Part shown: positions 8,273 through 10,311 of the stretch, piece after piece | Position numbering within the stretch: the first letter of the stretch is position 1 | How the letters are laid out: each line of letters starts with the position of its first letter | Made by a program: the position numbers and the translations under genes | Notes under the pieces: generated by a model | What the model was told of the DNA's origin: nothing | The model's database searches: none | Seen by the model: the letters and a program-made list of their open reading frames with translations, nothing else | Assembly: GCA_021783855.1 (NCBI GenBank) | Contig: JAJXTL010000104.1 | Span: 1 to 10,311, forward strand | Length of the DNA stretch: 10,311 nt | From: Pseudomonadota bacterium | Lineage (GTDB): Bacteria; Pseudomonadota; Gammaproteobacteria; Burkholderiales; Gallionellaceae | Direction: 5' to 3'

Positions 8273-10099
8273 ATGTGTGGAATTGTAGGCGCCGTAGCAC
8301 AACGCAATGTCGTACCCATTCTGCTTGAAGGATTGCAGCGTCTCGAATATCGCGGTTACGATTCGGCGGGCCTGGTCGTGGTCGATGATGGGAAGCTCAA
8401 GCGCCTGCGCAGCACGGGCCGCGTTGCAGAGCTCATTCAAATCAGCGCAGGCACGGAAGGCAGTCTGGGCATCGCTCACACGCGCTGGGCGACGCATGGC
8501 ATACCCAGCGAGCGCAATGCGCATCCGCACATGAGCCGCGATCTGATCGCAGTCGTCCACAACGGCATCATCGAAAACTACGAATCCTTGCGCAGCCGTC
8601 TGACCCAGGCCGGCTATGAATTCACTTCCGATACGGATACCGAGGTGATCGCGCATCTGGTGCACAGCCATTATGCAAGCGGCATGCCGTTGCTGAAAGC
8701 CGTGCAGTCGGCATTGACCGAACTCGTGGGCGCCTATGCCATCGGGGTCATTGCGGAGGACAATCCGGATCAGCTTATCTGCGCGCGCCGCGGCAGCCCC
8801 TTGCTGATGGGCATAGGCATCGGGGAGAACTTCATCGCGTCTGATGTTTCAGCGCTGCTGCCGGTCACCAACAAGGTGATCTATCTCGAAGAAGGCGATG
8901 TGGTTGAAATCGGCCGGCAGGGCTACCAGATCTACAGCGCGGCGGGTGTTGAGATGACCCGGCCTGTACAGGTCAGCGAGATCAGCAACGAAAGCGTTCA
9001 GCTGGGAAATTACCGCCACTACATGCAAAAGGAAATTCACGAGCAACCCGAAGCCATTGCAAACACGCTCGAATCGGCGTGCAACAGCCAGTCCATCATC
9101 CCGGGAATTTTTGGGGCCGAGGCCGAGGCTACCTTTGCGAATATCGACAGCATACTGATACTGGCCTGCGGCACGAGCTACCACGCCGGCCTGGTTGCGC
9201 GATACTGGCTGGAGGAGATTGCCGGCATACAGTGCACGGTTGAGATCGCCAGCGAATATCGCTACCGCACCAGCGTGCCGAATCCTCGCGCACTGGTGGT
9301 CGTGCTGTCCCAGTCGGGTGAGACTGCGGACACGCAGGCGGCCTTGAGTCATGCCAAGTCACTGGGACACATTTACTCTCTTGCGATATGCAATGTGCCT
9401 GAAAGCGCATTGGTCAGGCAGTCGAAGCTGCGTTTCTTGACGCGTGCAGGCCCGGAAATCGGCGTTGCTTCGACCAAGGCATTTACGACCCAGCTGGTAG
9501 CGCTCTTTTTGCTTACCCTGGTGCTGGCCAAGCAGCGCAATCGCTTGACTGCGGAATGCGAACAGCAGCATCTGCATGCCTTGCGCCATTTGCCCGCAGC
9601 AACGCAAAAGGTGCTGGATCTGGAACCCAGGATCGCTAAGCTGGCCGAGCAGTTTGCAAGGAAGCACCACGCCTTGTTTCTGGGCCGTGGCCTGCATTAT
9701 CCGATTGCGCTGGAAGGCGCGTTGAAGCTCAAGGAGATTTCCTACATTCATGCGGAAGCCTATCCTGCCGGAGAATTGAAGCACGGGCCTTTGGCGCTGG
9801 TGGACAAGGATATGCCTGTGATATCGGTCGCGCCCAACGATGCTCTGCTGGAAAAGCTGAAATCCAATCTGCACGAAGTGCGCGCGCGTGGCGGGGAACT
9901 GTATGTGTTTGCCGATGCGGATACGCATATACAGGAGGAAGACGGCGTGCACATCATGCACATGCCGGAACATGCGGGATATCTGAGCCCCATCCTGCAC
10001 ACCATTCCTCTGCAGTTGCTGGCCTATTACGTGGCATTGCAAAAAGGCACCGATGTGGACAAGCCGCGCAACCTGGCCAAATCCGTTACGGTTGAATGA
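8273..10099 (+). CDS. glmS: Glutamine--fructose-6-phosphate aminotransferase (isomerizing)
   Basis: This 608-residue cytoplasmic enzyme turns fructose-6-phosphate plus glutamine into glucosamine-6-phosphate, the first step toward UDP-GlcNAc. The N-terminal class-II glutaminase domain (about 1-240) has the nucleophile Cys2 in [16 protein letters not shown] (Arg71-His75), [10 protein letters not shown] (Asn97-Gly98) and SDTDTEV near 119-125. Two sugar-isomerase (SIS) domains follow: CGTS at 299-302, SQSGET at 346-351 and STKAFTTQL in the first; Lys485, Glu488 and His504 (ELKHGP) in the second. The tail NLAKSVTVE contains Lys603. Length is one residue less than E. coli. The 22-base gap after glmU has a GGGAAA ribosome site and no room for a glmS ribozyme. 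The 3' end of the gene doubles as the presumed Tn7 target recognition site. Confidence 0.98.
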
Positions 10100-10122
10100 C
10101 GGGCAGCGCGCATGTGTTGCCG
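10062..10122. other. attTn7-type target site: glmS 3' end and spacer
   Basis: In E. coli, TnsD of Tn7 binds the last codons of glmS, and Tn7 inserts about 25 bp after the stop codon. The equivalent codons here (encoding [20 protein letters not shown] is conserved as I recall it from E. coli) end at 10099, followed by 23 bases to the proposed transposon terminus at 10123. If this is the insertion, TGCCG (10118-10122) should be the 5-bp target duplication; its second copy would lie beyond the window. The site is seen directly; the TnsD role is inferred from the family. No terminator for glmS is visible in this spacer, which an insertion would have separated from the gene. Confidence 0.68.
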
Positions 10123-10128
10123 TGTTCC

Positions 10129-10153
10129 AACCTATTAAAGTCGTAAATAGGTT
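10129..10153. repeat. 8-bp inverted repeat around the first repeat copy
   Basis: AACCTATT (10129-10136) and AATAGGTT (10146-10153) are perfect inverted copies with a nine-base loop. No T tract follows on either strand, so it is not a convincing terminator. It may be part of the transposon end or chance. Confidence 0.55.
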
Positions 10154-10168
10154 AATAAAGTCGTAAAT
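10136..10168. repeat. Tandem TnsB-site-like direct repeat
   Basis: TAAAGTCGTAAAT occurs exactly at 10136-10148 and again at 10156-10168, a 13-base perfect repeat with a 20-base period. The spacing of about two helical turns would place both copies on the same DNA face. I read them as the first two transposase (TnsB) binding sites of the Tn7-like end. Confidence 0.85.
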
Positions 10169-10194
10169 TGAACATACGTAACTATGACCTCTGC

Positions 10195-10311
10195 TGTCAA
10201 TCGTAGAGTCCAACGGGTTAAGCAGCGAGCAGTGTTGCATAGTATCGCTGCGTAAATTTTGCTGGTGACAGATACCCCAGCCTTTTCTGCTTTCGCTGCC
10301 GGTTGTAGAAG
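10195..10311 (-). mobile_element. IS3-family insertion sequence, terminal part
   Basis: The 3' end of an IS3-family transposase gene runs in from the right edge. On the + strand, TGTCAATCGTAGAGTCCAAC (10195-10214) just outside its stop codon could be the IS terminus, since IS3-family ends begin with TG. TGACC at 10185 is an alternative edge. The other end, the terminal inverted repeat partner and the short target duplication are all beyond the window, so the exact boundary is not settled. It lies about 60-70 bases inside the Tn7-like end. Confidence 0.7.
10218..10311 (-). CDS. IS3-family transposase (OrfB), C-terminal fragment
   Basis: Reading the - strand from the window edge, 30 codons run to TAA (10220-10218). 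The peptide begins FYNRQRKQKRLGYLSPAKF and continues with TQRYYATLLAA. The FYNRxRxxxxLGYLSPxxF pattern is the hallmark C-terminus of the DDE integrase core (rve) of IS3-family OrfB, after the catalytic Glu. The protein catalyses IS transposition by a circle intermediate in characterised members. The upstream part, including the DDE residues and the frameshifted OrfA, lies outside the window, so I cannot tell whether the gene is intact. It is convergent with glmS. Confidence 0.88.
   Translation of the reverse strand, partial: FYNRQRKQKRLGYLSPAKFTQRYYATLLAA

Follow-up and report, generated by a model that had tools for sequence, protein, structure and literature searches.

The last 189 bases of the DNA analysed here (hereafter the window, meaning the whole stretch of 10,311 nucleotides) begin with a segment of 62 bp that, judging from its sequence, is very probably the glmS-proximal end of a Tn7-like transposon inserted at attTn7. 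The strength of this assignment comes from a site that agrees with the right end of Tn7 at 19 of 21 positions, from the register of the sites relative to the terminus, and from the recurrence of the same end behind glmS in other genomes. The example is clear but of a known kind, ordinary and without novelty in type.

The end behind glmS and its IS3-family border

The glmS stop codon (TGA, 10097-10099) is followed by 23 bases, then by TGTTCCAACC, and then by two copies of a 16-base repeat (Table 1). TGTTCC starts at 10123, in keeping with the original prediction, which had placed a TGT terminus 23 bases after the stop. The window has a packed pair of sites at the location defined by the target selector, attTn7, 23 bp past glmS. 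TnsD is described as binding the last 36 bp of the glmS open reading frame, with insertion about 20-25 bp further on and a 5-bp duplication, in the part of the study cited here (PMC2918618). Packed TnsB sites appear closest to the att site according to the relevant section of a review (PMC11406308).

Table 1 Features of the window around the glmS-proximal end (coordinates are those of the window)
Feature	Position	Strand	Basis
glmS	8273..10099	+	ORF; full-length match, GlmS 94% identical to that of genome G008
Presumed TnsD recognition site	about 10062-10097, 3' coding end of glmS		by comparison with the span in E. coli attTn7 (+23 to +58)
TGCCG, presumably one of the two copies of the 5-bp target duplication	10118..10122	.	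position; exact duplications in relatives
Probable glmS-proximal packed-site end of a Tn7-like transposon, shortened by the IS	10123..10184	+	identity to the ends of relatives
Outer TnsB-type site	10133..10148	+	core register from TGT equals that of the Tn7 R end
Second TnsB-type site, 20 bp in	10153..10174	+	19/21 to the R-end site of R721 Tn7 over 10154-10174
IS3-family insertion sequence, 3' end of transposase, runs off the window	10185..10311	-	98% to G008:C4:340883-341009, common border

The 16-nt direct repeats (the second copy at 10153-10168) lie 20 bp apart and are 94% alike. The inner repeat, extended to 21 bases, provides the match to the right-end site of the Tn7 copy on plasmid R721 (NC_002525.1), which confirms the earlier claim of near-identity to a right-end TnsB site of Tn7. 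Under a uniform-base model about 9e-6 matches as good as this are expected in the window, and the next-best place for the R721 site is the first repeat, with seven mismatches. In the window as in R721, AAAGTC begins 14 bases on from the first base of TGT. A looser 16-letter pattern, allowing up to three mismatches, was found twice versus 0.33 times expected; this test is weak by itself, since 2 occurrences were also reached in 10 of 200 shuffles. Tn7-like transposons have 8-bp ends, typically TGT/ACA. The terminus in the window is TGT, and those of the relatives are TGT, TAT, or, at the far end in G011, TAG. Compared with other ends behind glmS, positions 10123-10184 are identical at 58 of 62 bases in genome G006, 51 of 62 in G002, and 50 of 62 in G008.

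The visible transposon end is limited to 62 bp because matches to an IS3-family insertion sequence begin at 10185. A search of 76 genomes of the genus with the IS part returned 11 matches in 7 genomes; six of these start at the base matching 10185, one starts one base earlier, and four start further in. Four IS copies were followed across the border. An ORF in the G008 copy (L086) reads as the C-terminal part of a transposase, and some related plasmid matches carry the annotation IS3 family transposase. The likeness of the copy at 10185 to the IS3 family comes from a transposase C-terminal part and a border common to several copies; its partner inverted repeat, or other IS end, did not turn up at any of the loci inspected. 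Since this copy starts at 10185, the originally proposed span of 10123..10189 is 5 bases too long; a Tn7-family element with its cargo had also been expected directly to the right of the window, and what follows the end within the window is the IS3-family copy and not cargo. The window ends within the IS at 10311, so that neither tns genes nor a far end nor a second copy of TGCCG can be seen in it. G002 and G006 have a third inner site, at a distance of 75 and 82 bp from the first core; if the element in the window has one, it would fall beyond the IS. In the portion of a survey cited here, insertion sequences, particularly those of the IS3 family, are reported as the mobile elements most often found within Tn7-like transposons (about 30% of them) (PMC8649781).

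Recurrence and fuller relatives

An exact scan for the paired cores across 84,980 species genomes returned 12 loci. GlmS, with 62-94% identity to the GlmS of the window, directly precedes the sites in 11 of them, and the twelfth (L012, Janthinobacterium) adjoins another, diverged tns set. We also surveyed the 30 best glmS matches among 61 genomes of the closest genus; six of these 30 were already known from the exact scan. Eight of the 30 loci have at least two sites right behind glmS and one has a single site 109 bp on, while the other 21 have no sites over the next 400 bp, or as far as the stretch extends (for two of these, only about 130 bases were available after glmS). In at least five of the site-less loci (L051, L063, L065, L067, and L070) no more than about 100 bases separate glmS from the start of a ParA-type gene, which also follows the inserted DNA in G063 and G025, so the glmS-ParA order looks like the unoccupied site.

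With up to three mismatches allowed, the pattern occurs in the 76 genus genomes at 13 places in 11 genomes: 10 places, in 8 genomes, lie behind glmS, and the other 3, each in a different genome, precede an rpoH-like gene; a reversed control pattern was found at one place in each of two genomes. No paired sites (0 loci) were found in viral contigs. Searching plasmids with the end region returned 18 records, mostly IS matches, and one true end, on plasmid 1 of Polaromonas sp. JS666. This near end (L013:20001-20125) has three sites, lies on a conjugative plasmid away from glmS, and adjoins an IS1182 transposase. At two loci (L047 and L057), TGTTCC or TGTTC is repeated upstream of the end behind glmS, perhaps as footprints of earlier insertions. 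A separate stretch of G002 (G002:C21:134758-134835), away from glmS, encodes a sequence with 73% likeness to GlmS residues 575-600, close to the part read by TnsD; it is a possible decoy or captured att fragment.

Behind the same end, four relatives (G002, G005, G011, and G063) have ORFs for tnsD, a second tniQ, tnsC, tnsB, and tnsA, with TnsA of G063 assigned by eye. Together with the recurrence behind glmS in 11 of 12 loci, these genes uphold the prediction of a Tn7-like end at attTn7. Field usage, as given in the cited section of the review, applies the term Tn7-like to tnsB plus tnsC with tnsA and/or tniQ (PMC11406308). TnsD is 588-590 aa long in G002, G005, and G063 and is represented by an ORF of 420 aa in G011; the second TniQ is about 460-500 aa. 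Pfam models for TnsD, TniQ, TnsA-N, and AAA_22 matched the G002 set and, except for TnsA, the G063 set. Pfam gave no match for the TnsB of the relatives, which was identified through its matches to Tn7 TnsB (for G063, the best solved relative is Tn7 TnsB 7pik, E 4.9e-37), and NCBIfam gave none for five proteins. At L027:5092-5454 and L100:3613-3981 a small HTH gene separates the second TniQ from the first selector and is a possible partner of that TniQ.

The orientation of these elements agrees with Tn7 in part. The right end had been predicted to face glmS as in Tn7, and this is correct by architecture only: the packed-site end does face glmS, yet TnsA, TnsB, and TnsC of the four relatives are encoded in that order from the far end inward. 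R721 has tnsA directly within its R end, whereas tnsABC of the relatives begin at the glmS-distal side. Tns genes starting on the glmS-proximal side, which would mark Tn7 in the narrow sense, were not found in the relatives, the only elements to which this comparison applies. By convention the right end is the one upstream of the tns genes, as the review section defines it (PMC11406308). The relatives share the attTn7 target with Tn7, with 27% identity in TnsB and 23% and 37% in two stretches of TnsD, but add a second TniQ and, in some cases, the small HTH gene. The joint presence of tniQ and tnsD resembles the dual tniQ-tnsD Tn7-like elements of a survey whose cited part counts 1,048 loci with the genes in tandem (PMC10293859). 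A glmS-directed TnsD with a second TniQ is also found in type I-B1 CAST, which carries type I-B Cas genes and whose natural occurrence is reported, in the review section cited, only in cyanobacteria (PMC11406308).

Target duplications were looked for at seven candidate end pairs from six genomes. Four have an exact 5-bp duplication, bounding elements of 23,150 bp (G063), 31,157 bp (G011), 13,198 bp (G004), and 2,987 bp (G003), and the other three (one in G012 and two in G025) have no matching duplication. Spaced far-end sites were seen in G003, G004, G011, G012, G063, and G025, and the contigs of G002 and G005 yielded no far end. In G063 (L078, oriented about 23,340-23,400), a second near end directly follows the far end and has its first base in common with the duplication, apparently reflecting two insertions in tandem at attTn7. 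Some 20 kb from glmS, genome G025 also contains a diverged tns-like set (L080/L081, oriented 18,619-23,984) beside a ComM-like fragment (by reading). Of this set, the TnsB-like ORF alone was matched by search, and this distant TnsB relative belongs to a different element.

These observations are best explained by a history in which a Tn7-like transposon of a betaproteobacterial family, encoding TnsA, TnsB, TnsC, a glmS-directed TnsD, and a second TniQ, inserted behind glmS. By analogy with Tn7, TnsD would have bound the 3' coding end of glmS and recruited TnsC. TnsA and TnsB would then have joined the ends of the transposon to target DNA some 20-25 bp downstream of the stop codon, leaving a 5-bp duplication whose second TGCCG copy would be expected beside the far end, and placing the packed-site end so that it faces glmS. 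The IS3-family insertion, 62 bp inside the end, would be the later event, by which the two outer TnsB sites may have been cut off from any inner site and the rest of the element.

Complete element, non-autonomous member, or remnant

It is highly improbable that the repeats behind glmS are a regulatory or terminator feature of the host with only a resemblance to Tn7 ends. The sites do occupy a short intergenic stretch beside a conserved gene, and G025 keeps the repeats without tns genes. However, the repeats are missing from 21 of 30 glmS loci of relatives, form one border of the four duplication-bounded elements, and belong to an end type that is also present before an rpoH-like gene and on the Polaromonas plasmid. 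We rejected this explanation, and with it chance resemblance, on the grounds of the sporadic presence of the sites, the 19/21 match, and the pattern counts versus the reversed control. Repeats in transposon-free relatives, named in the original prediction as the observation that would speak against it, are likewise mostly absent, and G025 is the genome that comes near to such a case.

The DNA beyond the IS may belong to a complete Tn7-like transposon, to the remnant of one, or to a member of the family without genes of its own for movement; the last two are sub-cases of the transposon-end reading and not alternatives to it. Loss of the transposon body, for example through a deletion mediated by an IS, so that a solo or decayed end is left, is a substantial possibility, though one to which we give somewhat less than an even chance. 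It has to be considered because, among the three most similar ends compared (G006, G002, and G008), only that of G002 comes from a genome with a cognate TnsB. More broadly, five of the eight genomes of the genus that have the end behind glmS (G006, G008, G009, G010, and G025) lack a cognate TnsB. Yet in four of these five (G006, G008, G009, and G010) the contig stops no more than about 1.6 kb from glmS, and metagenome-assembled genomes often lack mobile DNA. A transposase-like ORF (IS30-type by reading) begins 53 bp after the first site in G008, where the contig stops about 1.1 kb past glmS. In G025, the interval of about 5.8 kb from glmS to the ParA-type gene has far-end-like sites, no matching duplication, and no tns ORF. 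Weighing against a remnant, a cognate TnsB is encoded in 4 of the 76 genus genomes (G002, G011, G020, and G063), three of which have the end behind glmS.

It is unlikely that the window's element is a non-autonomous member, with two good ends and cargo but no tns genes, for which the transposase would be supplied in trans. Such elements exist in G004 (L034) and G003 (L036), where duplication-bounded insertions behind glmS contain no tns-like ORF among the ORFs of at least 90 aa checked (13 and 2, respectively); these were apparently moved in trans. However, G004 is labelled Rugamonas and G003 Duganella, whereas the duplication-bounded copies in the genus of the window (G063 and G011) carry tns genes.

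Same-family ends before an rpoH-like gene

Ends of the same family also stand at a fixed place before an rpoH-like gene in three genus genomes (L098:8547-8591, L099:83-127, and L100:2194-2240). Counting outward from the end, the neighbouring gene has its start codon at base 83 in G020, 83 in G034, and 84 in G066, and a dyad, TTGGCACTC-N9-GAGTGCTAG, starts at base 31, 29, and 32, respectively. Pfam identified sigma-70 regions in the neighbouring gene of G034; the designations rpoH-like for the gene and CIRCE-like for the dyad are our own reading. Where the contig allows, in G020 and G066, a 389-aa TniQ comes first and is followed by HTH and TniQ genes, and in these two of the three rpoH-linked copies it occupies the place of the glmS-directed TnsD. 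The tnsABC genes of G020 are on another contig, with TnsB 73% identical to that of G063, and the 389-aa protein is present full-length at 100% in 2 of 158 genomes of the family. Far ends and duplications of the rpoH-linked copies were not found. The place before the rpoH-like gene is likely a second attachment site.

We tentatively suggest, with the odds leaning slightly against it, that the end in the window comes from a betaproteobacterial Tn7-like lineage, little described so far, in which TnsABC and the HTH-TniQ pair are retained and the first selector is swapped. A TnsD of ~590 aa would direct insertion to glmS, and the 389-aa TniQ would direct it to 82-83 bp before the rpoH-like start, beside the CIRCE-like dyad. 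If this is true, a heat-shock promoter would serve as an attachment site and the HTH-TniQ pair would form a second, protein-only target pathway.

In a genus represented here largely by fragmented genomes, a short terminal sequence after glmS suffices to flag a Tn7-like insertion, and a clean end motif has been gained for finding further ones. The related loci suggest one transposase core with different target selectors, which bears on how landing sites change in such transposons.
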